Part shown: one piece after another, positions 2,982 through 47,440 of the stretch
Position numbering within the stretch: the first letter of the stretch is position 1
How the letters are laid out: each line of letters opens with the position of its first letter
Source of the DNA: Cliona cf. orientalis
Lineage: Eukaryota > Porifera > Demospongiae > Clionaida > Clionaidae
Direction of reading: 5' to 3'
Assembly: GCA_963930775.1 (NCBI GenBank)
Contig: OZ005689.1
Span: 11,191,079 to 11,255,078, forward strand
Length of the DNA stretch: 64,000 bases
Translations under genes and position numbers: made by a program
The notes under the pieces: generated by a model
Told to the model about the DNA's origin: nothing
Databases searched by the model: none
What the model saw: only the letters and a program-made list of their open reading frames with translations

Positions 2982-3020
2982 TTATTATCATTAAATTTTG
3001 TTACTTTGAATTCTTTGTTC

Positions 3021-6483: not shown

Positions 6484-6627
6484 TGTATATGTGTTTATGA
6501 TGATCTTTACCTAATATCAAATTTTCATGTACGTATTATTAGAACAAGTATTGATAAAAAGTTTTAAGATGTCAATTTAACGTGGCGTCTAAATCTATTC
6601 GCATCCGAGAGAGAAAGCGCAGAAACA
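6484..6627 (+). repeat. 5' LTR of the BEL/Pao element
   Basis: 144 bp, starting TGTATATGTG and ending GAAACA. It is repeated at 13078-13359 with only a few substitutions when the nested insertion there is ignored. It is short for a BEL LTR, but the target duplication GTCCA and the following primer site fix the boundaries. Confidence 0.88.
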
Positions 6628-6628
6628 T

Positions 6629-6645
6629 TGGTCTTTCGAGCCGGA
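6629..6645 (+). promoter_or_regulatory. Primer binding site resembling the 3' end of tRNA-Tyr
   Basis: TGG begins one base after the 5' LTR. The 17 bases are complementary, with one mismatch by my recollection of animal tRNA-Tyr, to its 3' end (...GGCTCGAAGGACCA). This is where a tRNA would prime minus-strand DNA synthesis. Confidence 0.55.
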
Positions 6646-6793
6646 TGCATCCTTGAACCTTTTTGCTACATACTTTCTCTACTTGGAACACTTGCTCTCA
6701 CTCGAATCGGTATCTATTTTGAAGCACTATTTCGGTGCGCTCTATTTGGAACATCTCGTGCTCGGCGGTGTACTCTATTTGGAATTTCGCAAC

Positions 6794-8119: not shown

Positions 8120-10030
8120 TCCAAAAATCATTGTCTCAATTGCTTACGCCCAGGGCATTTCGTAAAGAAGTGCAGGTCACTGAATCATTGTAAAATTTGT
8201 CAGAAGCCACACCACACTCTGCTTCACACGGATAGTAAAGGCGACACTGTTGGTAAATCTAGTGAGCCTTCCGCATCAGCTTCGGTCGTGACTGTTAACT
8301 CAGCCGTGAGTGTCCCAATTACCTCTAACGCACTGTTAATGACTTGCCAAGTCATCGTTGAAACGACCCATGGAGAGGCTAAGGCTCGCGCACTGCTAGA
8401 CACTGGATCATCGGCGTCATTTGTGTCAGAGCGTCTTGCTCAAACACTGAAGCTACGCAGATTTACGCAAAACGCAAGAATATGCGGTATAGCTGGTCTA
8501 TCGCACGGTAGTGGGAAGCAATCCGTGACCCACTTCCTCGTTTCATCTATACACTCGCCTGTAAGGAAGCTCAACGTTAGTGCATTCATTGTCCCCCAAG
8601 TCACGTGCGACCTACCAGCGCATCCAGTCACTACCAAAAAGAGTTGGAAACACTTGGAGAGCCTGAAACTCGCCGACCCGGAATATAACAAACCCGGAAG
8701 GATCGACGTCCTACTCGGAGTCGAAGTATTCCTTGAAGTGCTGCGCCAGGGCCGGCGGTGTGGTCCTTCCGATTCACCCACAGCAATCGATACCGAGTTC
8801 GGGTGGGTACTGGCTGGAAGTGTGGGTGACATAACACAGACCTCCACGGTGGCAACTCACGTAGTCTCAATCTTGAGTGGAGATGACCTACTCCGACGTT
8901 TTTGGGAGTTGGAAGAGAAGGTGGTTGTGAATAGTACACTTTCCTTGGAAGAACACACTGTACTCACTCACTTTGAAAAGTATCATTCTCGTGACACAAG
9001 AGGCCGATTCATCGTGCCATTGCCCAAACGTTCTTCGACAACTGGCCTTGGAGAATCTCGGTCCCAGGCTGTACGAAGGTTCCTATCCTTTGAACGATCC
9101 CTGCAGGCGAAAGGGATATTCTCAGAAGTACGAGTAGTCATGGACGAGTACTTCACTGACGATCACGCCGAAGAAGTCCCCTCAGCTGATCTGGACAAGC
9201 CTATGCAGGAAGTGTTTTATCTCCCTGTTCATGTGGTTCACAAAGAATCAAGTACTACTACCAAGATACGTGCCGTATTCGACGCTTCTGCAGTCACTTC
9301 TACCGGCATTTCACTCAACGATACCTTGATGGTTGGTCCAACTGTACATCCTCCCTTAATCGATGTTTTGTTACGATTCAGGACACACCGAATTGCATTG
9401 ATCGCCGACGTTAGTCGAATGTACCGAGCTATACTCTTGACACCGTCTGATAAGGACTTACACCGTTTTGTTTGGCGTGATGATCCTAAATCCAAGCTTA
9501 AGGATTATCAAATGACCCGCATCACATTTGGAGTTTTAGCGTCCTCGTTCATCGCAAACATGTGTGTAAAGCAGAACGCAATCGATTTTGAATCACAATT
9601 TCCCAACGCAGCTAAGGAAGTTCAGAAATCATTCTACGTGGATGATTATGTGGGAGGAGCTGACTCTACGGAACAAGCAATCCGACTACAAGAAGAGATG
9701 TGTTCTTTATTTCAGATGGGTGGTTTTCTGCTCCGTAAATGGAATTGCAGTGATGCTAAGGTGTTACAAAGCATTTCTCCTGAACTGAGAGATTCTCGGC
9801 AAGTCATCACGTTGTCTGACTCTGAGCAGTACACCAAGACACTCGGAATCGAATGGAACCCCCAGGATGACCACTTCAGAGTATGTATCGTTGATCTCCC
9901 ACACGTACACCAAATGACGAAGAGATCCTTAGTGTCTGAAGTTGCAAAAATCTTTGACGCATTGGGCTGGTTTTCTCCTACTATCATTAAGGCGAAAATC
10001 CTCTGCAATCGCTGTGGTCTGCAAAGATAG
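8120..10030 (+). pseudogene. BEL/Pao pol segment: zinc knuckles, protease, reverse transcriptase
   Basis: Same frame as the gag segment, after the TGA. Two Cys/His knuckles come first (CLNCLRPGHFVKKC, then CKICQKPHHTLLH). The protease active site is LLDTGSSASFV near 8390. The reverse transcriptase runs from about 8900 to 9900, with the catalytic YVDD near 9634-9645 followed by YVGGADS. An apparent 1-bp deletion close to 10000 shifts the frame and leads to TAG at 10030. It would have processed the polyprotein and copied RNA into DNA; this copy cannot make the full product. Confidence 0.88.
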
Positions 10031-10540
10031 GATGGGACGACCTAGTTCCTGACAACATAGTGGAAGAATGGTCCAAGTGGAAGAGTCAGCTACCGATGTT
10101 ATCAAACCACCACATTCCCCGCTGCTACTATCCAAAGGGCGCAAACATCACCTCGGCCCAGTTACACGGATTTTCGGATGCATCAGAGAAAGCGTATTCT
10201 GGCGTCGTGTACCTACGGTTGGAAGATTCTAATGGTGCTGTCTATACATCTCTGATCATCTCCAAGACTCGAGTCGCGCTGATTAAGAGGCAGACCATCC
10301 CACGGCTGGAACTATGTGGGGCTCTGACACTAGCTCACATACTTGCTCACAGTAAGAGCGTCCTAGCGATGCCAATGGATTCCATTCATGCATGGACTGA
10401 CTCTACGATAGTTCTTTCCTGGATCCAGGGCAATCCACACCGATTCAAGGTATATGTGGGCAATCGTGTCTCCCAAATTTTGGATCTAATCCCAGCAGAT
10501 CGTTGGAACCACGTGGTCAGTGAGGACAACCCAGCAGATT
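10031..10540 (+). pseudogene. BEL/Pao RNase H segment
   Basis: Continues pol in the next frame after the frameshift. RNase H acidic residues are visible in FSDASEKAYSG, PRLELCGAL and AWTDSTIVLSW. The segment stops at NPAD, where a non-LTR element is inserted; the duplicated target CAGATT is at 10535-10540 and 11233-11238. Confidence 0.85.
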
Positions 10541-11232
10541 TTTTTTTTTTTTTTTTTTTTTTTGTGTATAATAATTTCTGTCGTAAAATATACAGAGGTC
10601 ACATGAATAGCAAGTGCTAACAAAAACATGAGACCCGACTTATAACTAATGAGAAAAATATTAACTAATAACTATAATAGGTTCGATTTGAAAACATAAA
10701 CAGAGGGTGAAGAGGCAGTGCTGCAAGGCAGGGTGTTCCATTGTGCAATGGTCCTGGGGAAAAATGAATTATGGAACTGAGAAGTTCTAGCCGCTATGTT
10801 TTGAAGCTGCAGAGCATGAGAAAACCTGTTGTTGTAATTAATGATCCGATATTGGAGAGGTGCTTCAGGAAAGACAGTCAGATCGTTGACTATTTTGAAC
10901 AAGTGACTCAGCCTACATTGCTTACGCCTGTCAGAAAGAGCAGGGATTTGACTCTGTATATACAATTGATTATGATCAGAGGACCAGTTCTTGAGACATA
11001 CACGCAAGGCAAATCTCTGAACCTTCTCAAGAGCATCAACATCCCTAGCAAGATATGGGTCCCACACAATGGAGCCGTACTCGAGGTGGGGGCGGATGAA
11101 AGACTTGTATAATGTAAGGAGGGTGGTAGAGTCAGCATGCTTGTAGAACTGACGATATAAGAGACCAACAAGCTTCCTAACTTTACTGCAAAGTTTAGCT
11201 ACATGAGGAGACCAAGAGAGGTCACAATTGAT
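10541..11232 (-). mobile_element. 5'-truncated non-LTR retrotransposon inserted in the BEL pol gene
   Basis: 692-bp insertion in antisense to the host element. The run of T at 10541-10563 is its poly(A) tail on the minus strand, and CAGATT is duplicated at 10535-10540 and 11233-11238. Only the last part of its second reading frame is present, as is usual when reverse transcription stops early. The BEL protein frame is continuous across the two insertion sides, which dates this event after the BEL insertion. Confidence 0.9.
10672..11232 (-). pseudogene. Reverse transcriptase C-terminal part of the nested non-LTR element
   Basis: The minus-strand frame is open from the truncated 5' end (11232) to TAG at 10672. 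It carries the thumb-end pattern common to CR1/Jockey-like elements: LSWSPHVAKLCSKVRKLVG, then LYKSFIRPHLEYGSIVWDP and LEKVQRFALRVC. The catalytic FADD part is missing by truncation, so this is a dead-on-arrival copy. CR1 versus Jockey/RTE assignment is uncertain. Confidence 0.85.
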
Positions 11233-11237
11233 CAGAT

Positions 11238-12975
11238 TGTGCTTCTTGTGGCATATTTCCTTCAGAACTCCTGAGCCATGAGTTGTGGTGGAATGGGCCA
11301 CACTGGCTGAAGCTACCGGTACATCGGTGGCCTAAGACAAACAAATCCCAACCCAGTGATGTCATGGAAGAATGTGGCGAATTACGATCCATCGTTTGCA
11401 ATGTCTCGATTATACAGGATCCTCTCATTTCATTTGATCGATTTTCCTCCTTCAATCACTACAGAAGAGTCATTGCATGGGTGATCCGATTTATCGACAA
11501 TTGTAGAGCCAAGACGAAAGGGCTCAAACCTGACAATGGCCCCCTGACCATAGAAGAGTTGGAGCAATCGGCCCGGTACTGGTTCTCCACCATTCAAGCA
11601 TCACACTTCTCAAGAGAGCTAGATTTGTTGAAGGGATCACCAAATGGCACTGAAGTAACTGATAAGACCTCGACGGATGCCGATCGAGGAAGCCCAATTC
11701 CATCTTCGAGCACTCTCTCTTCACTCAAGCCCTTCCTTGATGCTAAGGGCCTGTTACGTGTTGGAGGACGACAGCAGAATGCAAAGTTTACTTATAACAG
11801 TCGTCACCCCATAATACTTCATTCGAAGCATCCACTCGTTAAGATATTGATCAGGTCAGAACATGTGCGTCTTTTTCATGGCGGATCTCTAGTCGTCTCC
11901 TCGTCTTATCTTTCGTGATTTTCACATTGTTGGTGGACATGGAGCTATTCGTTCTATCGTCAGGAGTTGCATCACTTGTAGGCGTAGAGCGCCCAGACCA
12001 AAACCACAAATGATGGGGCAGCTTCCCCTTGAACGCGCCACACCTGATGCTGTTTTTGATCATGTTGGCCTCGACTACGCTGGTCCGCTGTACCTGAAAC
12101 TAGGTTCCGTTCGTAAACCCACCATCATCAAGTCTTACGTCTGTGTTTTTGTGTCCATGTCTGTTAAGGCGGTACACTTGGAGCTTGTCTCCGATTTATC
12201 TACCGACTGCTTCCTTGCTTGTTTGAGAAGATTCACTGCCAGACGAGGAAAGCCTTCCTCCATATGGAGTGACCACGGCACTAATTTCGTGGGAGCCAAC
12301 CGTGTCCTGAAGGAGCTCTATGCATTCTTGCTTTCGAAACAGACCGAGGAAACCATCTCTACCTTCTGCTCTAGTCAAGGCATCAAGTGGCACTTCATCC
12401 CGGAAAGAGCACCTCATTTCGGTGGCCTCTGGGAGGCAGCAGTGAAGAGCTTCAAACGTCACCTAATTCGAGTCGTTGGGACTACCAAACTTAACTTTGA
12501 AGAGATGAGTACTGTTTTGACACAAATTGAAGCGTGCCTTAATAGTCGCCCCCTAGGAACCTTACCCCACAACGATGACGGTATCGAGATGTTGACTCCA
12601 GGACACTTCCTGATCGGCAGACCACTACAAGCGATTCCTGATCACCCCAAGTCTTATAATCCAATGTCAGTCCTCAAGAGATGGTATTTATGTGAAGCAC
12701 TCACGCGACACTTCTGGGAGCGTTGGAGTCGTGAATACTTGATCGGTCTCAGACGATATTCGAAATGGAAACGTCCAGAAAGAAACTTTTGTGTAGGAGA
12801 CGTCGTGATCCTCAAAGAAGACAACTTAATCCCCAATCAATGGCCTCTTGCCCGAGTCACAAAAATCACCCAGGGAAGTGATGGACTGGTTCGTGTAGTC
12901 CAACTTAAGACAAAGGATGGGTCATATACCAGACCTGTTGCCAAGGTTGCCCTCCTTCTACCTTGTGAGAACTAA
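11238..12975 (+). pseudogene. BEL/Pao integrase and DUF5641 segment, frameshifted near 11900
   Basis: After the nested insertion the pol frame resumes directly at 11238 with PSELLSHELWWNGP. A frameshift at about 11890-11910 breaks it inside the HHCC zinc-binding part (HIVGGHGAIRSIV, CITC). The rest is open to the TAA at 12975: integrase core with GLDYAGPL, WSDHGTNF and GGLWEAAVKS carrying the D, D and E residues, then DUF5641 (RPERNFCVGDVVIL). The integrase would have joined the cDNA to the genome. Confidence 0.87.
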
Positions 12976-18112: not shown

Positions 18113-20277
18113 ATGGATGAATCAACTGTAGAAGTGAAGTTGACAGAAGAAGACATCCCTGGGGCTAAACTTGAGGAACCAATGGAGAAGTATACCAATC
18201 CTGAACTCAAATGGTGGCTATTATGTCGTGGTATCTGTGTCTCTTCTTCTTTGAAGAAACAACAACTCTTAGACAGGTAAATTAAATGCTACATGTATGA
18301 AAACTCAGTAGGTTTATCTTTCACTACCAATCCCAAACCTAAGGGGTACCATCCCATTGCCTGCTCAGGCAAACCTAATCTCGGCCACAGGCAGAGCCAC
18401 CTAGGTACCTAGGGTTGTGTTAGACTTCTCCATGTTAATCATATGTTCAATACTGAATGTACAGGATAAGGGAAGCTCAAAAGTCACAAAAGGAGATAGT
18501 GGATGTTGATGGTTCCTATCTTTATCGAAAACACCAGCTACCTCTATCAAAGGGCAAGTCTGTTGTGCCCCTCTCTTTACCAGGTATACCCCTGAGTGGA
18601 TGGGAACGGGTTGATAAAGGAAACTACACGCTTATGGCTAAGAAAATACCTTGTGTTACACCCGGTATGTTGTGCTATATGATTGTATGCAGCATTAGTG
18701 AGTTCATTAACCTGCCACATGTTGCTACAGGGTTGCTTTATACGTACCTAGCAGAAGGAACTGGAAAAACATCAGGGAAAGGAGCATTCCGTGCGCTTCA
18801 AAGGGGATTTCAGCATTGGTCATGTGGTCGTCTGAATAATTTGGAGATCAATGTCCAGCATCCTAAATTCTGTCATATTAGATGTGAAGTAACACCGTCC
18901 ATGAAGGCAGGGCTATACCACGTGATGATGCTTCTAGCACGCGATGGTGATTTGGCGGTCATCGAATCTGCTACATGTGAATGTGTTGCAGGGTAAGTTT
19001 GGCACTACAGTGTACATGTGCATGCAGAAGAGTGTGTTTGAATTATTCTCTGCAGAAAATCAGCTTCTTGCACTCACGTGTCAGGTCTCCTACATGCACT
19101 GGTATCGATGAGTGAAAGTGAAATTCACACATTCAGGCGACCTGATATGACGGTGAGTGCATCAAATGAGGAGGAAGTACTACCAGTGACATCGTATGCT
19201 TGTAAATGGAATGTTCCTAAAAAACGCAAAGTTAGCACACTACGTATGTCAGAGGCTACATTTGAAAAGCATGTTTATGGAAAGGAAAAGAGACGATCGC
19301 TAAAGCCACTCGAAGAATTTGATCCGCGCCCAATTGAACTCAGGGGCACTGCAAATGAGAGATTGCCCGAGTTATTACACAAGCTGCGTGGGAAGGGTTT
19401 AAGCATATCATTGTCACTTGATTCAAAAACTAGGTGCTGGAATTTGGAAGGTCACCCAGATGACAAGGATGCAGTATGCTCTGAACTACCTTCTAAAAAA
19501 AATCTCCAAAAACGAGTTGCAGAGTTTAAAAAATGCCTCAAACAGTCGCCTGAAAAATGTAGGGAGATTGAGTTTAAAACTCGTGAACAAGCTAGTTCTC
19601 CTTTGTGGTATTCTGCTCGTAGATATCGATTAACTGCATCTTACTTTGGAGTAGTTCGGCAGAGACGACCTACCACGTCCCCTCACTCTCTGGTATTACA
19701 AATTCTTGGTAAATCTACATTCTCATCACCCGCTACTGACTGGGGAAAAGCCAACGAGAAAACGGCACTTCAGCTCTACCAGGATAAGCAGCGTGAAAGT
19801 GGTCACAAGGACTTGTATGCCTGCCCTTCTGGTTTTGTTATTTCTGAAGAGTATCCCTTTCTTGGAGCCTCTCCTGATGCGGCAGTGTATGACCCATCTG
19901 TGCCCGACCCTTTTGGATTAGCAGAAATTAAATGTCCATTCTCTGTTTGCAACTTGACGCCTGCTGAAGCATGCTCAAAGCCTAATTTCTGTTGCACACT
20001 GAAAGTGAATGGTACTACCCACCAGTTGGAGCTAAAACGGAATCATCCTTATTATGCCCAAGTTCAAGGACAAATGGGTGTAACACAGCGAAAGTGGTGT
20101 GACTTCATTGTATATACAGAGAAAGGACTAAGCATTCAGCGTATCTACTTTGATGAAGTATTTTGGAAGGATCTTTTGACAAAACTGGAAGAATTTTATG
20201 ACAATTGTCTTGCTCCTGAGATTGTTAGCCCAGTACATGTGTTAGGTCTTAAAGTTCGTGATCTACGTTTGATGTAG
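18113..20277 (+). CDS. SAP/SWIM/YqaJ-type nuclease encoded by the transposon
   Basis: Three exons, 18113-18276, 18465-18992 and 19056-20277, join in frame to give 637 aa. Near residues 33-60 is a SAP-like motif (PELKWWLLCRG ... QQLLDRIREA). A SWIM zinc finger follows with C226-x-C228 and C236-x-H238, split by intron 2. The C-terminal half is a YqaJ/lambda-exonuclease-type domain: E465 (ANEKTALQLY), D505 (GASPDAAV) and E521-x-K523 (AEIKCP), then YYAQVQGQMGV. These are the metal-binding residues of that nuclease fold. It probably trims or recombines DNA during transposition, alongside the THAP-DDE transposase that converges on it. Intron 1 has received a SINE-like repeat. All sites look intact. 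Confidence 0.9.
18300..18415. repeat. Second copy of the SINE-like repeat, in intron 1 of the YqaJ gene
   Basis: Similar to 13124-13256 from AAAACTCAGTAGGTTTATC through CTGCCTGCTCAGGCAAACCTAA to the end, with small differences. It lies wholly within the intron 18277-18464 and leaves both splice sites intact. No target duplication could be fixed. Confidence 0.7.
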
Positions 20278-20456: not shown

Positions 20457-21986
20457 CTAATCATCTTCACGATCACTTTCATCTGCATCGTAGTCTGAAT
20501 CGTCCAGAGCATCAAAGTATGACTCTACATCTGAATCTGCATCATCATTCTGTGGTGGAGGAACAAGTGATGGTTGGAAGCAGGTGAGCCAAGCACACAC
20601 ACAAACTATTTGGTTTGCCAAACGAGCCATGCTTAAGGGTAGATTTCCTTTGAGGATCGCAAAGTTTTTGATGCGTCCAATTGCACGTTCAACATGGATC
20701 CTAACTGAAGCGATTTTTCGCGTATGCAGTATCTCTGCTTCTGTTAGCTGCTTGCCACCTGTTACAAATGATGGTATGTTCAGATCCACACCAACTGCAC
20801 GTAGCTGATCACGGATAGTGAACCCCTTGTCAGCCATGATGGACATTTTTGTATCATGACTTGTGGGTAGACTCTGTATGAAGCCAGACACTCTAGTAAG
20901 TTCCACGTCTGAAATTGACCCAACATACAGAGGTGATACAAAGCACACAGCACCATTAGGGGTACAACCAATCAAAGATTTACTAGTATTATGGTGTTTG
21001 TATTCACTCCATGTAGATGATTGCATCTGTAAGTCACTGGGGGTCTCGAGGAATATTTCAGTTCCATCTATTATGGCATACGTTGACGGATACTTTTCTT
21101 TAAATATATGTGGCAGATTTGCAGCCACTTGCTCCTGTGATGGCATCCATTGAATTTCCTTGAAATGGTGATATAAAAAATAAATCCAAGTTGTGATGTA
21201 TCTGGAGGTTAACCCAATGGAGATTCCAAACCTTATAGACAAGTCTTTTACTCGAACGTTAAGACGTAATCGCATCAATGTCAAAAAAAACTGATTCTTG
21301 GGGTCTAATTTCATGTTACGCTTGCCACTTCGAACAGCATCAGTACCCCAATAGTGAAGCTTATTAACAGCTGGGCCAAGGAAATCAAATACAGCAACAA
21401 AAATTTCATATGAGGGAAAACCGGTATAGAATCGGACAAGCGAATCATCATTTGCGATATCATCAAGTCTAAAGTGCTTTGGTCGTGTTATGCTTGCACT
21501 CTCCTTCAGTTTTTGGTTTTCAGCTTCCAGATACTCAATACGAGCTAACAATGCCCTATTTAGCACCTCTTTCTCAGAAAAACTAAGGGAATATGTGTCT
21601 TCAACATGTGGTAACTCCTGTACCACATAATCTGTAAGCAATGGCTCCCCTATTGATGCAATAAGTGATTCCTGGTCGGTATTATTATCTTCTGATGGTG
21701 ATGGTGATATAGAAGCAGAGCGTGTGCTCCGTTTGGAATGCAACTTCTTTGGTGAGGCGAAACGCTTTCCAATATCAAGTGATGGTACTTGACTTGAGTC
21801 ACCATTTAAGAAATGTCGGCTACATATGCGTGAATTTTTTGTGATATCACTTGCCTTCAGCCCTAGTGCTTTCAACCATTGTTCCTTTCGTGATTGATCA
21901 GCTGGAAACCTAAACATTGATACATCTTTAGTTTCACCAGGAGCTTTTGCTTTAGTATGCCCACAAATAATGCATGTATTTGGCAT
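20457..21986 (-). CDS. THAP-domain DDE transposase (DDE_Tnp_4 type)
   Basis: Single-exon protein of 509 aa starting at ATG 21984-21986. An N-terminal THAP zinc finger has C5, C8, C55 and H58, with W37 and a FRFPAD motif; it should bind the element ends. Residues about 137-166 form a coiled coil (ARIEYLEAENQKLKE). Residues about 228-275 are a helix-turn-helix of the DDE_4 type (LSIRFGISIGLTSRYITTW). The catalytic triad is D307 (IIDGTEIF), D386 (IMADKGF) and E433 (HVERAIGRIKNF). The tail is strongly acidic (DDSDYDADESDREDD). Nothing is missing, so the protein should be functional. The gene converges on the YqaJ gene of the same element. Confidence 0.95.
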   Translation of the reverse strand: MPNTCIICGHTKAKAPGETKDVSMFRFPADQSRKEQWLKALGLKASDITKNSRICSRHFLNGDSSQVPSLDIGKRFASPKKLHSKRSTRSASISPSPSEDNNTDQESLIASIGEPLLTDYVVQELPHVEDTYSLSFSEKEVLNRALLARIEYLEAENQKLKESASITRPKHFRLDDIANDDSLVRFYTGFPSYEIFVAVFDFLGPAVNKLHYWGTDAVRSGKRNMKLDPKNQFFLTLMRLRLNVRVKDLSIRFGISIGLTSRYITTWIYFLYHHFKEIQWMPSQEQVAANLPHIFKEKYPSTYAIIDGTEIFLETPSDLQMQSSTWSEYKHHNTSKSLIGCTPNGAVCFVSPLYVGSISDVELTRVSGFIQSLPTSHDTKMSIMADKGFTIRDQLRAVGVDLNIPSFVTGGKQLTEAEILHTRKIASVRIHVERAIGRIKNFAILKGNLPLSMARLANQIVCVCAWLTCFQPSLVPPPQNDDADSDVESYFDALDDSDYDADESDREDD

Positions 21987-22238
21987 CCTTTTAGACCTTT
22001 AAGCAGCTGTGGACAGAAAAAAGCAGTAGTAAGTTGTATACAGTATGTATATCTAGACGTTTCAGTAACTGTATATCATTTTGGTCGCCACCAAGGGGCC
22101 GCTGAGCTACTAGTGTGCATCATAGATCAATAAAAGTAGTCTATATGATAGTATGGTGGCATGCAGCATGGGTGGCTAACCCTAGATCACGGATCTACGC
22201 CCAAGTTAGGGGCCCCAAGGCAGCTGGCTAGTGAGTTA

Positions 22239-30313: not shown

Positions 30314-30760
30314 ATTGAAATTTACACTTGTGTTGATCAAGGTGGACGTGTGCATGTACATTAATTTTTTATGACAAGTAATCATTATTATCCCTCATGT
30401 CTATTGATATTGATGCTTTTGCTTTAATAAGCTAAGACACATAATATATATATAATAATAATATTATTATTATATATACACAATGTACATCTTCATGAAT
30501 GAATACAATAATAATCATTCTCAAGTCTCAAAAGGATTCTGCATCAGAGATATATAGCCCATCCTTGGGAACCAAAATGCATTGAGCATAGCCTCATCCC
30601 AAACTCAACACAATAATAATAAATCTGATCCGATTGATTTTTTTTATTTAACTTCATAACAAGCAATGCCATGGACACAACATCAGATACATGTTCCACA
30701 TTTAGTTAGCATTTTACCATAAGTGATAACAGACATGATTGAGTGTTGACCGCAAAAATT
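30314..30760. repeat. Receptor 3'-end repeat, copy 1
   Basis: Direct repeat of 36115-36560 and 46840-47220: starts AATTGAAATTTACACTT and includes the words CTTCATGAATGAAT, GCATAGCCTCATCCCAA and AACTTCATAACAAGCAATGCC. In the later copies the repeat runs into the terminal exon of a receptor gene on the minus strand, so this is probably duplicated 3'-untranslated sequence. Confidence 0.75.
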
Positions 30761-36114: not shown

Positions 36115-36894
36115 AATTGAAATTTACACTTATGTTGATCAAGGTGGACGTGTGCATGTACATTAATTTGTATGACAAATAATCATTATTATCCCTCATA
36201 TCTATTGATATTGATACTTTTGTTTTAATAAGCTAGGACACATAATAATAATAATTAATATATTATTATTGCATCTTCATGAATGAATGCATGATGAAGA
36301 TCAAAGCTGATTCAGAGATAATCCCATCCTTGGGAACCAAAATGCACTGAGCATAGCCTCATCCCAAATTCAACACAATAATAATTATTATAATAAGGTA
36401 ATCTTAAAAATTAATCTCATCTGATTGATCCTTTGTTCAACTTCATAACAAGCAATGCCATGGACACAACATCAGACACACGTTCCACCATGGCATTTTA
36501 CCACAAAGTGATAACGGACATGTTTGAGTGTTGATTACACAGTGTATGAACTAAAATGGCTTCAGTGAGAGAGACAAGGGACTGAGGTCTGAAGTTACCA
36601 CTAACAAGTATGCTGATGCTTGAATTGTCCATGCATCAATGACAAGTAGCACCTGTATCCGTTAGTGCCAGTACCTGTAAACAAAACAGTGAAAATAATA
36701 AGATCACTGACTGCTACGATAACATCTGTGTCTGTTACATCATAGCATAAACATGAGTGTTGACTGCACAGTGTATGGCTTCAGTGAGAGAGACAAGGGA
36801 CTGAGGTCTGAAGTTATCACTAAAAAGTATGCTGGTAGCTATGTGTTATGAGGCTGCCACAGGTAATTACAGGTGCTATATGTATCAATGACAA
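36115..36894. repeat. Receptor 3'-end repeat, copy 2 and start of copy 3
   Basis: 36115-36757 repeats copy 1 and continues into sequence corresponding, on the minus strand, to a terminal exon (GGTACTGGCACTAACGG after TTTACAG) and its preceding intron. A further partial copy starts near 36758 (TGCACAGTGTATGGCTTCAG) and is cut at 36894 by the EnSpm-like element; it resumes at 46791. Confidence 0.7.
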
Positions 36895-36899
36895 CACTG

Positions 36900-37050
36900 T
36901 TAAAATAAGGGTACTGCAGTTATACCCAAAGGGGTCTTCAGGCGTATGTTTTTATTTTATACCCCATGGGGTATTAATAAAATACCCTTCAGGGTATTAG
37001 CACAATACCCTTCGAAGTACCACCAGAATACTGCTTGGGGTGTTACTGGA
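36900..37050. repeat. Left subterminal repeats (GGGTATT clusters) of the EnSpm-like element
   Basis: Several copies of ACCCCATGGGGTATTA, ATACCCTTC and AGGGTATTA within about 120 bp. CACTA transposases bind such clustered subterminal repeats; the right end has matching ones. Confidence 0.6.
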
Positions 37051-37344
37051 AGGCTTTGTGGTATGCAACACACCCCTCCCCATACTCATAATTTCTATTA
37101 TTATTAGTGAGATGATTAAAATTATATAATAATAATATAATAATCTTCAGGTTGTTAAGTAATCACAAATAATATATTATATTAAGTAGCTATAGCTGTA
37201 TACACGAAATAAATAACAATATCTAAGAGGTATAAAATAAAAAGGATAAAACAGTTAGCGTATGGTTGCATGCATAAACAACAGTTACTACCATAATAAT
37301 TATTAAATGGTGTACAAGTGTCTGTACAAGAGTTACATGATTAG

Positions 37345-40300
37345 CTACTCTTCCAGTTTATCTACAGAACTAATAAAACGCACAATAGCTGGAGGAAGGC
37401 TCTCTTCCTTGATGGAAAAAATGAAATGTTGAATAAATATTAGCGGTGTACTCAAGGCTTTTGGATACTCAATGTTGAAAGCATAAAAGCTTGCCATTAG
37501 TGCTTGAAATGCTTTGAAAAAACTGCCTGTACTCAGAATCAACAGCCGTTCAGTTATAACACTGAAGGACAGCGAGTCATCACCAGCTACAACTCCAATG
37601 TAGGGGTGATTGTTGGGCACCTTTTTGGCTTGCTCAGCAATGTTGGATGGACTCTACAGAAAAAAGAAATGTTGCAATGATCAAAACTGAATTCATAACA
37701 CAAGCTGACACTATAAGGCATCGTACATACAATGTGGTGTGTGCATACACTTCGTACACACACATTGGATATACACTCTCGCACATAAAAGTTATCTGGG
37801 ATGCATGGACGAATGCACCCCAATTACTGTCAGATAACTATTTTGTTGGTAGTTGATCTCTGTTCATCATTGGCCTACTTTATGATGACCCAACCCCTTC
37901 CCATAGCCGGCAAATTGCCTATAAAAACTTTGGTTGCTAGGCAACTACCAACAAATATATGTGTGGTGTGTGCAAACACTTGTACACACACATTGGATAT
38001 ACACGTAATAGTTATATCACGGGCGCGAGGGATGTATGGCATTTATTGCACCGAAGCACGAGGGCGCGAAGCGGCCCGAGGGCTGAGTGCAATAAATGCC
38101 ATACATCCCGAGTGCACGTGATATAACTATTTTATATCCCGTGGGCATTAGCTACCATGGATACTGAAAAGAAGAAGAAAGAAAAACTCATCTTGGTCAT
38201 ATCAGACCACTAAGCCGCTCTCTGAGTCAGCTCTCGAACGTCGATCGTTCCTTAGAGCGCCTCGTGACTGAGGGGTGTGGTCAAATCGACACTAAACTCG
38301 ATCGCGTGACAAGCACCATCAAGTTCAGAATGTCGCTCAAGCTGTTACCCAGCACAGAAGCGAATACCTATTGCCATGCCAAAGCTTCTACGTGATAAGC
38401 TTACCTTGGTAAGTCTCTGTCTGTGTAGACTTGCGATCGACCGACCGATCGACGATACGACTCCGCCCATTGCCTCGAACGCTTTGTGGTTTCTCCTACC
38501 ATTCTTCCCGCTGTACGCTCCATTGATATAGCTTTACAGAGCCCCACAGAATCGCTGAAGAAGCGGCTAGTTCTTTGATCCTCGGCAATACTTTTGCCTG
38601 AAGCGCGTTTGACAGTGCAATATCGTTGCGGTTAGTGCAATATGAGTTTGCGGTTAGTGCAATATGGCATATATTTTACTTAGCAACAACATAGTAACGG
38701 GATATAATCTCTCATACATACATGTGTGGTGTGTGCGTGCATACACTTTGCACACACACATTGGATAATTATACACTGTTTCTTTGTACATCACTTACAT
38801 CAAAGTGGTGTATTAACGAACACTTTGCTCGTGGTGCCAGCATGAAGATTAGATATTTCAACCCATATAGTTGATGAAGCTGTCGACCTGCATGTACATG
38901 AAACTTATATTCAATAACATTATCATGAATCACATACAACCAAGAGTAATACTTGGGGCAAGGCTGAGCGAGCCCCACACTAATCAGTACTACGAGAAAA
39001 TGGCTGTACTTATGCATGTATGTAGCGATATGTCGTCCACATGTTCGCTAGCTCATAGCGCATAATAGCTACTTGTACATGTACTTTGGATCGAAGATAG
39101 TAGAGGGGGCAACCCTTTACTATGCTGTGAGCGAAGACTTGCCCCCTCGATCACCCTAGTAAAAGAGAGAGGGAGAATTATGCTACTTCACCTACAACAT
39201 TTTACGGGGTTCATGACCTTAATAATAATATTATATTATAAACTGGCTTCATAGGTTGTCCAACAATATTTGTACAATCACCCCCCTTAAGGACTGTAAC
39301 ACAGTACCATAGTGAAGTAGGACACTCATACCTAAGTTTGAGGAGAGGGAGGAGCAAGGGCCTGGTACATACTGGTTTCGCATGCATTGTCAATCATCCG
39401 GAAATTGGGTGATCTCTTAGACTGCTTACTTACAACTGCCCTCAAGCACTCACATGCATTATGTACAATACACTCACCACCAACTTCATCCGTATAAATT
39501 GTCTCCTCTTCCTGTTGCTGTTTCCTAATTTCATCTAACTTGCTCCTGCCACCTTCAATCTCAACTTTACGGAACAGTTTCACAAGAAAGTTGTCCCATG
39601 CTTCCCTAGCCTGCTTCTCATCATGAAGATCACTATTGGTTGCAGCTGCCAATTCATTCTGCATCTAAACACAAAAATGTAGATAAATAATTGCTAAACA
39701 TCATGATTATTTCAACTTACATATTTTATTCCTAGAGTCAAAGGAGGAAATTTCTCCAGAATGTCCGCCACTGATGGACTTTCGTCGTGTATCCACTGCC
39801 TGCGTTTAGCCACCGTACTCTCCATTGCAGCAATCAATTTCGACTTCTTTGGTTTTTCCTTAGCACATTCCTCCTGCAGGAATTGTACTCCGGCATCATA
39901 TTCTTCTTCTTCTTCAGCTGTAACCACAACGTGGTTTTTTCGTTTGGATGGTGTGTTGAGTGGTGGTTCCTCGTTTTCTTTATCCTCCTCCCTTGAGCGT
40001 TTACGGCTGACAGTCTTTGGAGGAGCTCTGAGATTTTTGAACTTCCTTCGGATCTGCTGTTTCCATGATCCCTACAAATATAATATAGAGAAGCATTACG
40101 TACAGTATGCCTACCCACACTCACACGTACACACAACACACTTACATATCCATTCCCATACGAATCTTTCAAAACTGGGTACTTTTGGACTAGCTGTTTG
40201 CAGACAGCTGTGTAGTCCTCTCTGCTTGGATATTCACAATCCTGGTACCAAGGCACACAGATGGAGGTGACAACTTCACACCTGAGAGCATCGGTGATTT

Positions 40301-40721
40301 CTCCCTTCTCTAGGCGTTCCATGGTTGCTCTGGAGAATCTATCTGGGACCTTAAAACTGCAGCTATCACCAACACTGTGATGTTGAGGTGGAGCAACCTA
40401 ACATACATGACAAAAATTAATGACATTGAGTTCAAAGGATAGGGGTAATACCCTAACCTATTCTGGTATGCTAAACTTTTTCAGACTTACCTGACCTACT
40501 TTCGGTTGGGGCTTGAAGATATCAACCACTCTTTGCACTGCCTTTCTATCTCCAAGTATAGGGAAAAGCTCTTTGATATCATTCTCTGTCAGCTCAATCA
40601 AAGTTCTCCCATTCACCCTATTGGTCTCCAGAGTGTCTAAAATATCTTCAGTAATGTCATCTTTTGTTTCCAGCCAATCACGAAGCTCTGGTGCACTGAG
40701 GAGTATGATCTCATTTGCCAT
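37345..40721 (-). CDS. SAM-domain protein (SAMD3-like) encoded by the EnSpm-like element
   Basis: Five coding exons, all in phase 0: 40491-40721, 40146-40397, 39721-40071, 39434-39664 and 37345-37653, giving 457 aa. The ATG (40719-40721) follows a TGTGCAG acceptor, so a non-coding 5' exon lies upstream. Residues about 8-72 form a SAM domain (LRDWLETKDDITEDIL, LTENDIKELFPILGDRKAV). The middle has a conserved block (YPSREDYTAVCKQLVQKYPVLKD then GNGYGSWKQQIRRKF), basic/acidic linkers (RKRSREEDKENEE) and helical segments. The last exon has YIGVVAGDD, FYAFNIEYPK and FIQHFIF, as in SAMD3-like proteins. Those are often listed as ordinary genes, but here the gene is inside a transposon next to a transposase. 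A role in assembling transposition complexes through SAM oligomerisation is inference. No defect seen. Confidence 0.82.
37842..37955. repeat. Short MITE, TTTGTTGGTAGTTG ends
   Basis: 114 bp with ends TTTGTTGGTAGTTG and CAACTACCAACAAA, in the last intron of the SAM-protein gene. A close copy is at 44261-44363 and a diverged one near 23868-24000. It shares the internal word CCCATAGCCGGCAAATTGCC with the 44261 copy. Confidence 0.7.
38008..38130. repeat. Long hairpin repeat with about 44-bp arms
   Basis: Left arm ATAGTTATATCACGGGCGCG and right arm in inverse, enclosing GCATTTATTGCAC / GTGCAATAAATGC and a GC-rich middle (GAAGCACGAGGGCGCGAAGC). It resembles foldback MITEs whose whole length is an inverted repeat. 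In an intron of the SAM-protein gene. Confidence 0.7.
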
Positions 40722-40965
40722 GAAGACAGTAAATGCCTGCACACAAAATCAACACAAGGTTCTCATCATCAAGCTCATAGAAGTGATAAAATGTGACGGT
40801 ATCACTATACACATAATTCTGATGTCAACGTTTACTTTGTTAGCACCTAGTCTCATGTACCAGACCACTCCTTCCGCAGTACTAGATGTACTGCATCACT
40901 AGCACACGGGACGGTGATGGAATACATCTGCACTGCAGAGGGCACGGTCTGGTATATATTAGTTA

Positions 40966-41202
40966 GGCCACTCCAATATGATTAACCGTTTCCCATTTCC
41001 CGCCCGCATCCTTTCCACAATTTCCAGATTTTATTCATTATAGTGTATTAGTATACCCGCTCTTGTCTAATAGTAGCTTTGGAATGGGTCATCAATGTTG
41101 CCGGCGCTCTAACACGTATAGTATAATGAATAATGAACCGCCCGCCCGCATGCCCCAGGCTTTCTGATGAAAGGGGAAACAGTGAATCATATTGGAGTGG
41201 CC
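40966..41202. mobile_element. PIF/Harbinger-type MITE in the divergent promoter region
   Basis: Ends GGCCACTCCAATATGATT in inverted orientation, matching for about 30 bp; TTA flanks both sides (40963-40965, 41203-41205). 237 bp. It lies between the SAM-protein gene and the transposase gene and could alter the expression of either. Confidence 0.8.
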
Positions 41203-41205
41203 TTA

Positions 41206-42139
41206 GCGCCAAGGTTGAAGGTGCGATTTGTGCCTGGTAAACTCATGTTGTGTATTATGAGAGAACAACTTCGACGACCTGTATTGAAAATTGCATACCT
41301 GCTATAGCTCTAGGTCATGGCTTTGAGGATTCCACTAGATAAGGTCTTTGTACGAGGAATTATGTATTGCGGCAATGCCAAGATAAGTAAACGTGTATCT
41401 GCACACGCGCGCAAATTCTAATTATCGCCCGGGTGTCGTGGACTGCAGCTGCACGAGGAGCCTGTAAATTTTTGCCTTTGCACTCATGTTTAGCCCCCAA
41501 AAACAGGCTCTTTGACATAGATATATATCGATATGATAAAAATGATAAAAATAATACTATGATAAAAGACAGCTTAGATAGCTAGTTCTCGCCGGACCGC
41601 ACATAGATTGATGCCACTAAACTATGGGTTTTCTAACAAACTTAATCATATTATGACCTTATTGTAGCTACCTAGTAAATTTTTAACTTACAGATATTGA
41701 AATACTTGAGAGGGAGAGAGAGTGAGAGAACAGAACGGGATAACAGCACAGAAAGCTTGACCCACTTTACGGTTCACCTGCAACTGCAACGCAGATCTAG
41801 ATCGAGGCGCCAAAAAATCACGTGACTAAAACATGGTTACGCATAGCGCGGTAAGCCTCTGATCACGTGATTAGTAATTAATTTTAATCAGCGGCAGGCT
41901 GCAAGTACATTAACTCTCTACGTGCGAAGAAAAGGCGATTTTCATTTTCTCGAGATCTCAGTACTGAACTACGTGGATACCGTTCTTACAACCTTCGAGC
42001 TTCATTACTGAACGTCACATCATCGGCGCCAGGTATGATAATAATGCTCAGCTGCATGCCCAGCCCCTCCTTCAGTTCGTAGGAGGGGCTGGGCTATGCT
42101 CGTACCCATGCCTAGTTTATCGTCCTCTTTGTACAGGTA
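41206..42139. promoter_or_regulatory. Probable divergent promoter region of the EnSpm-like element
   Basis: Lies between the two divergently transcribed genes. Two TCACGTGA E-box-like palindromes occur 45 bp apart (41818-41825, 41863-41870) in a locally CpG-rich stretch, and an acceptor TTGTACAG at 42129-42136 shows that the transposase gene has a 5' non-coding exon here. An inverted repeat around 42050-42090 (CCCAGCCCCTCC / GGAGGGGCTGGG) could form a hairpin. No TATA box is evident. Confidence 0.4.
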
Positions 42140-45100
42140 ATGCCGCATGTGTGTCCTTTGTGTGGGGATGTGACTGTGGCTAAACATGCCCAACTAATGA
42201 CGCACATCAGACTTCTACATGCAGACGATCCAAATTTTCTTATACAATGCAATCGTCAGGGGTGTAAAAGGACTTTCCGGAAGTTCACTGTATACAAGAA
42301 TCATGTTTACACCTTTCACGATACAACAGATACTGATGACCTCAGTGCATCAGCCAGAAGTGGTATTGTTCCTGATCATGAGCACACAAATTTTGATATG
42401 GGTATATAGCTAGCTTTTTATACAGTGGCATCTATTCATATGCATATTTTTCAACCACATTTTTGTAGATGAATCTGACCAAGACAGTGAGCATGAGCAA
42501 TGTGAAACCATTACAGAAGATGATCTAAAAAGAGCTGCTGCTAAGTGGATTCTAAGACATCGTGAAGCCCATAGGATCCCTCACTCGGTCATGGAGTCTA
42601 TTGTATCTGGTGCGAAGTCATTGTATGATATTGCACTTCTCGAAGTTCGGCATCAAGTCATCCAAGCAATGAAGGACGCACATACTACAGCTGATGCTGT
42701 TACTTCAGTATCTAGTATCTTTGATACCCAGAGTCAGTACACATGTGTTTTCAAAGGGCTTGAAACAACACACAAACAAAATGCATTCATCAAAGATACC
42801 TTTTCCTTTGTTGTAAGTCATATGAAGTATAAACTACGTAGCATCACACAGGGTTGTAGCCAGAGGGTAAAATGGAGGGCGGCCACCCTCCTTTCTGACC
42901 TCAATTTTGTTTGATATGGTTTTTAAAACAACAATAATACTTTCATCTTTTAACCACCACACCCTTTAAAATATGAGCTGGCTATAACACTTTTACTTCC
43001 CTTTTACAGGAACCTGTACCTATTCTTTTGGGTACTCGCACGCAGCCTGGCAAGTTTTTAAAGGATGGTACTGTTAAAGAAACTAAAGATACTCTGGTTT
43101 ATATTCCAGTACTGAAGACCCTTGAACACCTTCTACGAAACGAAATGATTGTTTCCGAGGTAGGTGCAAGCAAGTGTAGTGCTAGTTTCACAATTTACAT
43201 TGGTATAATAATATTGTTATGTGTAAATTTTTATTTATTTTGTAGATTGAGAGGGGACACACTACAAGGCAGCCTGAGGTGTTAAAAGATTTTTGTGATG
43301 GGCGTGCTTCTAAGGATCACAGTCTCTTTTCAGTGCACAGAAATGGTTTGCAAATCCTCCTCTACTTTGATGATATTGAAGTAGTGAACAATCTAGGCTC
43401 TCACAAGAAGGTGCACAAGTTAGGTATGTGGTGCATTATGTTACTGAGCGTGTGGTATACGTGGTTGTGTACAATCATATACATGTATAGGTGTGTTTTA
43501 CTTTACACTTGGAAACCTCAGACCCAAGTATAGATCTCAGTACTCAAGCATTTATCTGCTAGCAATTTGTAAAAGAAAGCTCATCACAATGTACTCAATG
43601 AGTGCTGTACTTCGACCAATGGTTGAAGATTTTAAAGTCCTTGTAAGTCAGTGATTGAGTGCTGTTCATACATGTGCTGTTACATGCATTGGACGTCACT
43701 AACCCTAACAGGAGAAAGGGCATACATTTGATGTGCAAGGTCACCCACAAACATACTATGGTACTATTACTGTTGTCTCAGCCGATAACCCTGCTAGCAA
43801 TGGTCTAGGAGGTTTCAAAGAGAGTGTCACAGCTCATCGGTTCTGTAGACAATGTACAGCAACAAACTCAGAGACAAAACATGTGGTAAATCCATAAATT
43901 AATACAATGTCAACTAAATCCGTAAAATAATACAATATCAACTACACTTGTACACATTTCACTATCATCACTACATGTATCTGATTTTTGGTAGTTTGAT
44001 GAGAAAGTATTCATTCTACGCACTCGAGAACAACACCTACTGGATTGTGATGAGCTGGAAGCTGATGATACAGGTGACACTTCAGTGCAATTGGGTATCA
44101 ACTCTCGTTCTATCTTGTTTGAATTGCAGCACTTCCAGGTATGGTCATATAAATACCATACACATGCACACACCAAGAATATTGTTGTGTATACACACAC
44201 ATACATATGCACACTCGTACATCCACACATATGCATCTCATGCACCTCAGATAACTAATTTTTGTTGGAGTTGACCTCCGTTTATCGTTGGCCTACTTCA
44301 ACCCCTTCCCATAGCCGGCAAATTGCCCATAAATACTTTGGTTGCTAGGCAACTACCAACAAATATTGTTATGTATGCACACATACACACACGTACATGT
44401 ACACACACACACACATGCATATACAGGTAGAAACCTTGCTACCTGATGTGATGCACGATTTGCTGGAGGGTACATTGCAGTTTGAAGCAAAACTTATTCT
44501 TCGGCATGTGATCACAGAAAGATACACATCATACCCAAAATTTGCACGACTTCTAGCTGGACTGGAGTTAGGGTATATGGAAGCTGACAACAGACCATCA
44601 GAAATAGCTTCAAGTACCATATCCTCTTCTGAGAAGACTCTCGGGCAGAAAGGTATACTTGTAGGCAGGGTTGCATACAGGGGGGGGTAAACTGGGATCT
44701 CCCCCCCACCAGCTTGATTTTCCCCCCTGAATTCCATAATAATAATTATACATACATTATATACAGCACAAATAATGTGATTACATACACAAGCAAAAAG
44801 AAATCATTTATTATCACAGCATTAGTGTGTGATTTATTTACTAGTATATACGAATGGCAGCAGCGCATATACATATGTAAGTCATCCAGGAGATCCCCCC
44901 CCAGAAAAAAAATCCTGTATGCAACCCTGGTAGGTACACATACACGTGTGTATGTAGCAATGTCTTGTGGAAGTACTATACACACAGCTCATTATTTATG
45001 CTTCCAATCTCTCTCTAGCGGCTCAAATGTGGTTGCTAGGCAGGGTCATACCCTTTCTAGTAGGAGAAGATGTTCCAGAGGAAGATGAAAAGTGGAAGAA

Positions 45101-46415
45101 TTATGTTCAGCTCATGGAGATAGTGGATTTGCTGATGGCTCCTGCTATATCAGAGGACGAAGTTGCCGAACTTGGTGTATTGATTCATCAACATCACACT
45201 CTCTTTGCACAGCTCTATGGCAACTCCAGTGTGCTTCCGAAGCATCACTTTATGATTCATATGCCACGCCTCATTTTGAAGTAAGCTAATATACAATAAT
45301 ATCATACACATACACACATAATATTATTATTACATGTGTGTGCATACACTTTAATAGGAGTATTATTGTACTATGTTGAATGTGCAGGTATGGTCCACTT
45401 GTACGCCACTGGACAATGCGCTATGAGGCTAAGCATAACCACTTGAAGAAATTGGCTCAGAATATAGGTAATTTCATCAACATAGCATGGACATTGGCCT
45501 CTCGTCACCAGTACTGGCAGTGTTACAAGTGGCAGGAAGGTGATGTAATGGATGATGAGCCTGAAATTGGACCAGGTACATACACCGTAGTATCCCAGAT
45601 GAGTATCCATGGGCGCTCAAAAATAATTCACACATTGTACTTAGGATAATAATATTATGGGATTTATTACTTAAAATATTTTCGGACAGCCTGGCTTGTG
45701 CAAAAACTAGACGCACAAAAATACATTCGCAATATTAACGATAATGTGGTACAGGATCGTTTGTCCGAAAACTATTTATTTAAATATTTTAGACGCGAAA
45801 TATTTGTGATTTACGGTACATTGAATTATTACTGTAGTACAAACATGCACATAATGTACTTGGCTCAAAAACATAACAGTGGTACATGATACATCATTTT
45901 ACAGGTGATTTGGTGGCCTCCAGGAGTAGACCTTGTGAGATATCAGTCTATGAAGACTGCTTCAGGTCAGTCACTAAAATGGTAATGTAGGCTAGCTATA
46001 CTCGTAAGCTCATAAAAATTAATTATAATCACTAAAAGGTGTTGATATTGTGCATGGTTAGGTGTTTATCTTTCCATTCTATAGAACCTCTTGGATTAGA
46101 CGAAATGGTATCTTGTTCAAGCCAGGGTGCGTGCTGACTTTAGGAGTTGAGAATGATGACCCTTCGTTTGGGAGAGTGGAGGCCATATACATTGCCAACT
46201 CAAACACCGTGTACTTTCACATTGAAGTGATGTGTACACTTCAGTATAGTACACACCGCCATCTCTATATCGTTGAAAAGACACACAACTTCAAGACAAT
46301 TTGTTTTGAATCTTTGTACTCTGTGTTTCCTCTTCATTTACGTAGAGTGATAGTCAATGGCTCAGTTTGTTTGTGTGTTATACCCAAGCACCACATTCTC
46401 AATACACTGCAGTAG
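42140..46415 (+). CDS. EnSpm-like transposase with C2H2 zinc fingers (tnp2-like)
   Basis: Twelve coding exons: 42140-42401, 42469-42812, 43010-43159, 43246-43423, 43491-43642, 43712-43885, 43995-44138, 44427-44652, 45019-45280, 45388-45575, 45905-45965 and 46085-46415. Phases agree throughout and the product is 823 aa. Residues about 4-60 contain two C2H2-type fingers (CPLCGDVTVAKHAQLMTHIR, then CNRQGCKRTFRKFTVYKNH). The central region has LPDVMHDLLEGTLQFE, the motif that marks this transposase group in animals. It also has KHHFMIHMPRLILKYGPL and VRHWTMRYEAKHNHLKKLA. The protein should bind and cut the CACTG ends. It is divergent from the SAM-protein gene, about 1.4 kb between start codons. 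Several introns hold MITEs without harm to the splice sites. Catalytic residues cannot be assigned by eye. Confidence 0.86.
44261..44363. repeat. Short MITE, second copy of the 37842 family
   Basis: Ends TTTGTTGG and CAACTACCAACAAA; shares CCCATAGCCGGCAAATTGCC and TTGGTTGCTAGGCAACTACC with 37842-37955. In intron 7 of the transposase gene, beside (CA)n microsatellites. Confidence 0.7.
44666..44929. mobile_element. hAT-like MITE, CAGGGTTGCATACAGG ends, 5-bp target duplication
   Basis: Ends CAGGGTTGCATACAGG and CCTGTATGCAACCCTG in inverted orientation; GTAGG flanks both sides (44661-44665, 44930-44934). 264 bp in intron 8 of the transposase gene. Confidence 0.8.
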
Positions 46416-46654
46416 ACTACAAAACAGTGTAGTGTACTTTTTATTATATGCTGTGTGTATTATCATTGTATTCAGTCAAATTTAAAATCTGTTCCTAAGC
46501 TAAGCGCTGATCTCATCTCCTATACATGTAGACATGCAATGTTATTATTGCATGGACAAACCAGAAACTGATAAATTAGTCGTGTGATAGGGGTTGGGTA
46601 GCTATAATATGGTTTAGATTACTAGTAGAGATCATTAGAGCCTTTGGGGGATTA

Positions 46655-46785
46655 GAGCATGATAAGGGTATCACATCAATACCCCATATGGTAAGGGTAT
46701 TACATCAATACCCTCATGGTACTCTCATAATACCCCTGCTATTTCAGCTGAGAGTTGGGGTATTCCCACAGTACCCCTATTTTAA
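46655..46785. repeat. Right subterminal repeats of the EnSpm-like element
   Basis: TAAGGGTATTACATCAATACCC occurs in near-tandem form, followed by further ATACCCC words and the terminal GTACCCCTATTTTAACAGTG. The word family is shared with the left end. Confidence 0.6.
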
Positions 46786-46790
46786 CAGTG

Positions 46791-47440
46791 AAGTAGCACC
46801 CGTATCCGTTAGTGTGCGTGTACATGCCATAAAAAATAATCACTATTAGGCTTCATGTCTTAGGCTATTGATACTTTTGCTTTATTAAGCTAAAGCACAT
46901 AATAATAATATTATTATGCATCTTCATGAATGAATGCATAATGAGAATCAAACATTATTTAATGCTCAAAGTTGAAACCTCAAAGGGCCGATTCCAAAAT
47001 GCGCTGAGCGAAGCCTCATCCCAAGTTTAGCACAATTGATAAGGTAATCTTTAAATCCTATCTAATTGATCCTTAATTTGTTCAACTTCATAACAAGCAA
47101 TGCCATATGCATACGCACCGACACAACATTTGAAAAATGCCCCATCATAGCAAATTTTTACTACAAACACCACAAAGTGATAACAGACATGATTGAGTGT
47201 TGATTGCACAGTGTATGAACTAAAATGGCTTCAGTGAGAGAGACAAGGGACCGAGGTCTGATAACAAGTATACTGGTAGCTTGCATTGTCGATCATTATG
47301 TTATGAGGCTGCCACAGGTAGTTATAATTGCTATGTATCAATGACAAGCAGCCATTAGCGAAGTACCTAAAATAATGATATTTAGATCAACTGTTACGAT
47401 AACATTTGCGTCTGTCACATCACAGCATAAACATGAAATT
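46791..47440. repeat. Receptor 3'-end repeat, copy 3 continued and copy 4
   Basis: Resumes the sequence cut at 36894 (AGTAGCACCCGTATCCGTTAG, also at 36645) and then repeats the words of copies 1 and 2 (CTTCATGAATGAATGC, CATAACAAGCAATGCCAT, GCTTCAGTGAGAGAGACAAG). It merges into the alternative last exon of the receptor gene at 47338-47366. Confidence 0.72.

Follow-up and report, generated by a model that had tools for sequence, protein, structure and literature searches.

Why does an animal gene with a SAM domain, of a kind normally counted among host genes, lie inside a DNA transposon? The gene in question shares a 9,896-bp CACTA/EnSpm-like element with a divergent transposase gene at positions 36895–46790 of the window, the 64,000-nucleotide stretch of the sponge Cliona cf. 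orientalis analysed here (GCA_963930775.1, contig OZ005689.1, positions 11,191,079 to 11,255,078). A preliminary description of this locus had left the choice between transposon cargo and a working second gene. The gene pair recurs in other elements of the genome, so that this type of gene is a transposon part here. A second gene is preferred over cargo because the SAM gene is intact in all three full-length copies of the element and in both copies of a second family, because its ratio of nonsynonymous to synonymous substitution rates (dN/dS) is well below 1 and because it stands head-to-head with the transposase gene in 19 of 28 transposase clusters. We put the probability that the SAM gene is a conserved, functional second gene of this transposon lineage at about 0.82.

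The element is complete, with CACTG...CAGTG termini exactly at both of its coordinates (Table 1). Its empty site is kept in a tandem host repeat (36631–36667), which reads through without the element and matches the joined flanks at 94.6% over 37 bp. Diverged copies of one repeat unit lie in the host DNA around the element (30376–30749, 36177–36894 and 46791–47436), one of them being the empty site. The genome (216.8 Mb, 149 contigs) contains two more full-length copies, C2 (9,901 bp, TA duplication) and C3 (9,899 bp, TG duplication), 99.95% identical. C2 and C3 each differ from the window copy by five substitutions and from each other by eight, plus a few gap bases, and the flanks of the three copies are mutually unmatched over 500 bp. 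As near-identical full-length copies stand at different sites, we infer that the element moved very recently. The intact 9.9-kb element with CACTG ends put forward in the preliminary description is thereby borne out by its 36-bp repeats, AA duplication, empty site and two further copies. That unrelated neighbouring genes, or an assembly duplication, were taken for one element is barely conceivable; no point was found in support of this explanation, and it was rejected on the empty site beside the element, on the unrelated flanks and differing duplications of the three copies, and on the seven two-gene elements in which both ends and a 2-bp duplication were located (see below).

Both genes are intact in all three copies, the sole amino-acid change being V376I in the C2 SAM protein. 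The transposase model comprises 12 exons (42140–46415, + strand) encoding 823 residues, and the SAM gene, divergent from it, five exons (40721–37345, − strand) encoding 457 residues. Neither spliced frame contains an internal stop, as had been claimed, and all introns are GT-AG. Conservation of the individual exons in the second family, represented by C9, supports both models.

The initial assignment of a C2H2/tnp2-like transposase held in part. The 12 exons are open, but the window protein has no tnp2 match in Pfam and its zinc finger falls below the cutoff. Indeed, it is the exception in a four-member alignment (A2), where the other three transposases match Transposase_21 (tnp2; best 4.5e-7) and align with the window protein at 35–38% identity. 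The motif order of the CMC group is present as D294, D387, CRQC (C407/C410), HHFMIH (H620/H624) and E644, invariant in all four A2 members and visible across eight aligned transposase sequences, some of them near-identical copies. This order suggests that the residues form the catalytic core. A PDB search with the transposase gave no credible relative.

The SAM domain was likewise recognized through relatives. The window protein has no SAM match in Pfam, and SAM_1 is matched by four of six family members (best 3.6e-9). Exon 1 matches SAM domains in the PDB, with a best whole-chain E of 1.8e-4 (summed over repeats) and 0.015 for the best single-domain chain. The family profile reaches 6.5e-6, its best matches being the SAM domains of Sfmbt and Polyhomeotic. 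By its PDB and profile matches the protein is a SAM-domain protein, and the five-exon gene first described inside the element stands. Identity to C9 is 86% in exon 2 and 42–60% in the remaining exons. The gene is putatively SAMD3-like, a label taken from the preliminary description; SAMD3 and SAMD3-like proteins have an N-terminal SAM domain and, after it, conserved regions. Animal SAMD3 and SAMD3-like genes differ from the present gene in being annotated as host genes.

Membership of CACTA/EnSpm is indicated by terminal inverted repeats beginning CACTG, by tnp2 homology through the A2 relatives, by the CMC motifs (two D residues, with C(2)C and H(3-4)H lying between the second of them and a final E) and by short subterminal repeats at both ends. 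Of the 37 GGGTAT/ATACCC sites in the window, 12 fall into the terminal 200 bp at one end of the element or the other (400 bp in all), against an expectation of 0.23. The 8-mer AATACCCT occurs five times in the outer 300 bp, above all dinucleotide shuffles (mean 2.4, maximum 4). The 7-mer AATACCC occurs nine times there, and the top 7-mer of the shuffles averages 4.0 with a maximum of 10; the GGGTATT clusters described earlier are upheld by end enrichment and 8-mers, and more weakly by 7-mers. Genome-wide, the pattern CACTG-N10-GGGTATT was uninformative (22 matches versus 18 with a backward control). A target duplication of 3 bp is usual for EnSpm. Parts of PMC12730594 give 3 bp for EnSpm and 2 to 5 bp for the wider CMCT group; the 2 bp found here fit the CMCT range and not the strict 3 bp. 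Taken together, the locus is best explained as an autonomous, recently mobile two-gene CACTA/EnSpm DNA transposon.

The preliminary description had proposed asking whether copies with the same ends always carry the SAM gene. All three full-length copies do. Searches with the two ends, in which every candidate was scored (8/8 and 6/6), added partial and older copies. C1:4.056M is a truncated right part (99.5% over 1,969 bp) with neither the SAM gene nor the left half in the 6 kb examined, and at C1:2.275M and 2.323M diverged end pairs stand about 0.8 and 1.1 kb apart (left ends 78–80%, right ends 72–73%), which we read as probable short derivatives. As the first of these also lacks the left half and the short pairs are too small for either gene, copies without the SAM gene are non-autonomous derivatives and do not speak against a two-gene element. 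C1:25.11M is an older copy of which the left end alone was matched (96%); damaged pieces of both genes lie 4 to 13 kb farther along. Further left-end-only matches occur at C1:2.269M (76%) and, twice, at C1:5.547M (82%).

The same gene pair is found in other families. A second family comprises C9 (8.7 kb) and C15 (8.9 kb), with ends CACTGTTAAAA and the same terminal repeat start as the window element. Both have a TA duplication and the same divergent genes, with no stop in the aligned 423 SAM and 779 transposase codons; identity to the window element is 72% for the transposase and 61% for the SAM protein. Both ends, a TA duplication and a head-to-head SAM/transposase pair were also located at C4:7.07M (CACTGTTAAAAAAAGGG) and at C1:35.79M (CACTACAAAAAA, a CACTA form). 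All seven two-gene elements with located ends hence have a 2-bp duplication (AA, TA, TG, TA, TA, TA, TA). At five more loci the gene pair is present and no terminal repeats were found in the stretches examined. Those at C1:15.50M, C1:23.73M, C3:7.72M and C6:5.95M gave none that were convincing (shuffled controls gave 2 and 1 pairs of at least 13/16 per 20 shuffles), and that at C1:29.72M covers one side only, with the SAM side cut. The SAM gene at C3:7.72M, missed by the first tblastn, was recognized from open frames and a later search match. The window element, C9, C15 and these seven other loci, ten in all, were grouped into eight families, among them families whose transposases are 34–45% identical to that of the window.

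The two genes share their history. In trees of the ten loci, whose rows were put together from separate pieces (of 505 positions, the SAM row covers 171 at C1:29.72M and 328 at C6), every split with support of at least 96 is common to SAM and transposase, and the trees differ only at weak nodes (54–78). SAM and transposase distances correlate at 0.97 over the ten loci and 0.94 over the eight families (permutation p 5e-5). The best explanation is that the SAM gene is old and was inherited together with the transposase. Synonymous differences between the window element and C9 are saturated (0.78 for SAM, 0.75 for the transposase; nonsynonymous 0.23 and 0.16). The comparison of C9 with C15 is unsaturated and gives a dN/dS of 0.236 for SAM (8 synonymous and 7 nonsynonymous changes, p 0.006) and 0.245 for the transposase (22 and 18 changes, p 1.3e-5). 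Both genes are under purifying selection, as the preliminary description had asked of the SAM gene.

Genome-wide, a SAM cluster lies no more than 15 kb from 19 of 28 transposase clusters (in 18 cases no more than 10 kb), where random placement expects 0.18, and all 19 pairs are head-to-head. These cluster counts are lower bounds, 55 of 404 candidates having been scored in the transposase search and 93 of 120 and 81 of 116 in the SAM searches. Selection, matching trees and pairing together disfavour a simple passenger, that is, a host SAM gene captured once and carried without function for the transposon. Transposons are generally known to capture genes, and some clusters of either gene are unpaired. 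In fish, SAMD3-like genes are counted as belonging to the host, as shown by one mention, in PMC7037442, of a samd3-like gene among regulated zebrafish genes. Nevertheless, a captured passenger is improbable, given that the SAM gene occurs in families whose transposases are only 34–45% identical to that of the window, that its layout is constant and that its dN/dS resembles that of the transposase, whereas a functionless passenger would decay. In the choice left by the preliminary description, the second gene is thus favoured.

Several observations weigh against a functional second gene of a CACTA-like lineage. For nine of the 28 transposase clusters no SAM cluster lies inside the 15-kb range, and 23 of the 43 SAM clusters stand without a transposase cluster nearby, although these lists are incomplete: transposase was present at three of six unpaired SAM clusters inspected (C4:7.07M, C1:29.72M and C6:5.95M). 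None was seen at the other three, C1:25.46M (in 12 kb), C1:13.74M (in about 4 kb upstream) and C1:20.28M (in about 6 kb upstream). One of the 19 pairs spans 12.8 kb, and the SAM cluster at C1:30.67M lies near a transposase without being head-to-head. A strict pattern scan of ten merged transposase rows found all five CMC motifs in four, the other six lacking at least one. The top 7-mer of the window element stays under the shuffle maximum, and the subterminal repeat at C1:35.79M is not clearly above shuffles. The middle region of the SAM protein matches no known DNA-binding family; a weak MADF match (0.078) of one member in one search did not recur in another. Finally, the C2H2-like fingers of the transposase could themselves bind the repeats.

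We propose that the transposase, with its C2H2-like fingers and CMC-type core, would cut and paste the element and leave 2-bp target duplications, and that the SAM protein would work with it as a DNA-end-binding or assembly partner. Its SAM domain would make oligomers and its conserved middle region, from exon 2 into the first part of exon 3, may contact the subterminal repeats or the transposase, such that the protein would gather the two element ends and perhaps regulate the shared promoter region. The subterminal repeat is family-specific, being GGGTATT in the window element and in C9/C15 and GGGTGTT at both C4 ends; 7-mer repeats exceed all shuffles in C9, C15 and C4. The two families that have GGGTATT in common also resemble each other in SAM exon 2 (86%) and in the transposase exon that encodes the fingers (85%). 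Retention of the repeat where these exons are alike, and its change at both C4 ends, suggests a sequence-specific element protein, which could be either the SAM protein or the transposase fingers.

In maize Spm, two proteins of the element are required, TnpA and TnpD, made by splicing from one transcription unit; TnpD interacts with TnpA and stabilizes its DNA binding (PMC1636069, in part). A TnpA-like role for the SAM protein is, by this analogy, an idea that we advance tentatively. The element shares with maize En/Spm its CACT[AG] ends, subterminal repeats, Transposase_21 (tnp2) relatives, CMC motifs (D..D..C(2)C..H(3)H..E) and two element-encoded proteins (PMC1636069, in part). It differs in its 2-bp rather than the usual EnSpm 3-bp duplication and in that the second protein comes from a separate, divergent SAM-domain gene and not from one spliced transcription unit.

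Alternatively, selection on the SAM gene may act for the host or for stealth, such as silencing control or germline targeting, rather than for the transposition reaction itself. Chromatin proteins often have SAM domains, Sfmbt and Polyhomeotic being the best PDB matches of the profile, and TET/JBP genes, for which a role against silencing has been suggested, are carried by fungal EnSpm elements and by other transposons (PMC12730594, in part). The match is limited to the SAM fold, however, and nothing else found points to chromatin; we regard such a role as unlikely. It overlaps with the reading that we prefer, the SAM gene being a functional second gene in both.

Among other relatives, the animal CACTA elements SmTRC1/TRC have the Transposase_21 domain and 2-bp direct repeats in common with the present element, but their ends are CCC rather than CACTG, and the consulted part of PMC1636069 mentions no SAM gene and names no second partner protein for animal CACTA elements. 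Plavaka/CMCT transposons share the C(2)C and H(3-4)H motifs (PMC12730594, in part), and one relative has a weak Plavaka match (0.0033) that is outscored by Transposase_21. The fungal elements of PMC12730594 differ in carrying TET/JBP genes, the word SAM being absent from its main text as consulted. No report of a SAM gene in CACTA elements appeared among the top literature listings or in the consulted parts of PMC9004415, PMC12730594, PMC1636069 and PMC7037442, Repbase being outside the search.

Within this single genome a conserved SAM-domain gene accompanies the transposase in the eight families that were read, and in more by position. If this is general, it would correct the annotation of animal genes, SAMD3-like genes being counted as host genes, and would provide a concrete candidate for the protein that binds the ends or takes part in assembly, while the young intact copies would allow direct testing of the need for two proteins. 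Conceivably, though we would not favour it at present, the SAMD3-like animal family goes back to the second gene of an ancient CACTA lineage of animals, a counterpart of plant TnpA, in which case many annotated 'host genes', perhaps including vertebrate SAMD3, may be transposon genes or domesticated ones.

Table 1. Coordinates of the element and its parts in the window
Feature	Position	Strand	Basis
Complete two-gene CACTA/EnSpm-like element, 9,896 bp	36895..46790		CACTG...CAGTG ends; two further copies with other flanks
Target site duplication AA, left copy	36893..36894		Empty-site paralogue at 36631–36667
Target site duplication AA, right copy	46791..46792		Element boundary
Left terminal inverted repeat	36895..36930	+	36 bp, 83% identity to right end
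Right terminal inverted repeat	46755..46790	-	Pairs with left end
Left subterminal GGGTAT/ATACCC cluster, six motifs	36922..37010		Motif positions
Right subterminal GGGTAT/ATACCC cluster, six motifs	46666..46763		Motif positions
SAM gene exon 1, SAM domain	40491..40721	-	Gene model; PDB SAM domains
SAM gene exon 2, best conserved of the five	40146..40397	-	86% to C9 over 70 of 84 residues aligned
SAM gene exon 3	39721..40071	-	Gene model; C9 comparison
SAM gene exon 4	39434..39664	-	Gene model; C9 comparison; donor GTAAGT picked to keep frame open
SAM gene exon 5 with stop, conserved C-terminal region	37345..37653	-	Gene model; C9 comparison
Spacer between the start codons, presumably with two promoters	40722..42139		Suggested by gene layout
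Transposase exon 1, two C2H2-like fingers by eye	42140..42401	+	Gene model; below-cutoff Pfam finger match
Transposase exon 2	42469..42812	+	Gene model
Transposase exon 3	43010..43159	+	Gene model
Transposase exon 4, first D (D294)	43246..43423	+	Gene model; alignments
Transposase exon 5	43491..43642	+	Gene model
Transposase exon 6, second D (D387); C407-x2-C410	43712..43885	+	Gene model; alignments
Transposase exon 7	43995..44138	+	Gene model
Transposase exon 8	44427..44652	+	Gene model
Transposase exon 9, H620-x3-H624	45019..45280	+	Gene model; alignments
Transposase exon 10, E644	45388..45575	+	Gene model; alignments
Transposase exon 11	45905..45965	+	Gene model
Transposase exon 12 with stop	46085..46415	+	Gene model

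Smaller repeats are nested in the element. Its introns contain, at 37797–37954 and 44248–44391, a pair of related short repeats whose ends are inverted (TTTGTTGGTAGTTG...CAACTACCAACAAA, by eye), and relatives of them are also found inside the C9 element. SAM intron 4 contains a fold-back, TATATCACGGGCGCGAGGGATG ... CATCCCGAGTGCACGTGATATA (38000–38130; by eye), perhaps another nested insertion. Near the right ends of the C9 and C15 elements is a tandem array of units of about 180 bp (L043 8490–9255 and L044 8467–9393), seen as recurring partial matches. An inverted pair, TACCGTATCCTCCCGAAAATAAGCCCC, lies a few hundred bases outside the ends of the C1:35.79M element (L059 515–547 and 7765–7797) and may represent separate small repeats.

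Elsewhere in the genome, C1:25452500–25464500 is a SAM-only piece, at least 3.6 kb of which is 99.9% identical to the SAM half of C6:5945500–5955400, without the transposase half; further upstream is an open frame resembling a pogo/jerky-type transposase (by eye). In stretch L057 (about 2550–3637, − strand), pieces resembling the start of the transposase are opposite in strand to the remainder (26.9% match), suggestive of a rearrangement or a second nested element. Nineteen pattern matches in viral contigs included none confirmed as a relative. Mobile elements are abundant in the window itself, where open frames at 6593–12975 resemble a BEL/Pao-type retroelement and those at 1941–2981, 19042–20277 and 20457–21998 resemble, respectively, an IS630/Tc1-type transposase, a YqaJ-type exonuclease and a THAP-finger plus DDE transposase (all named by eye).

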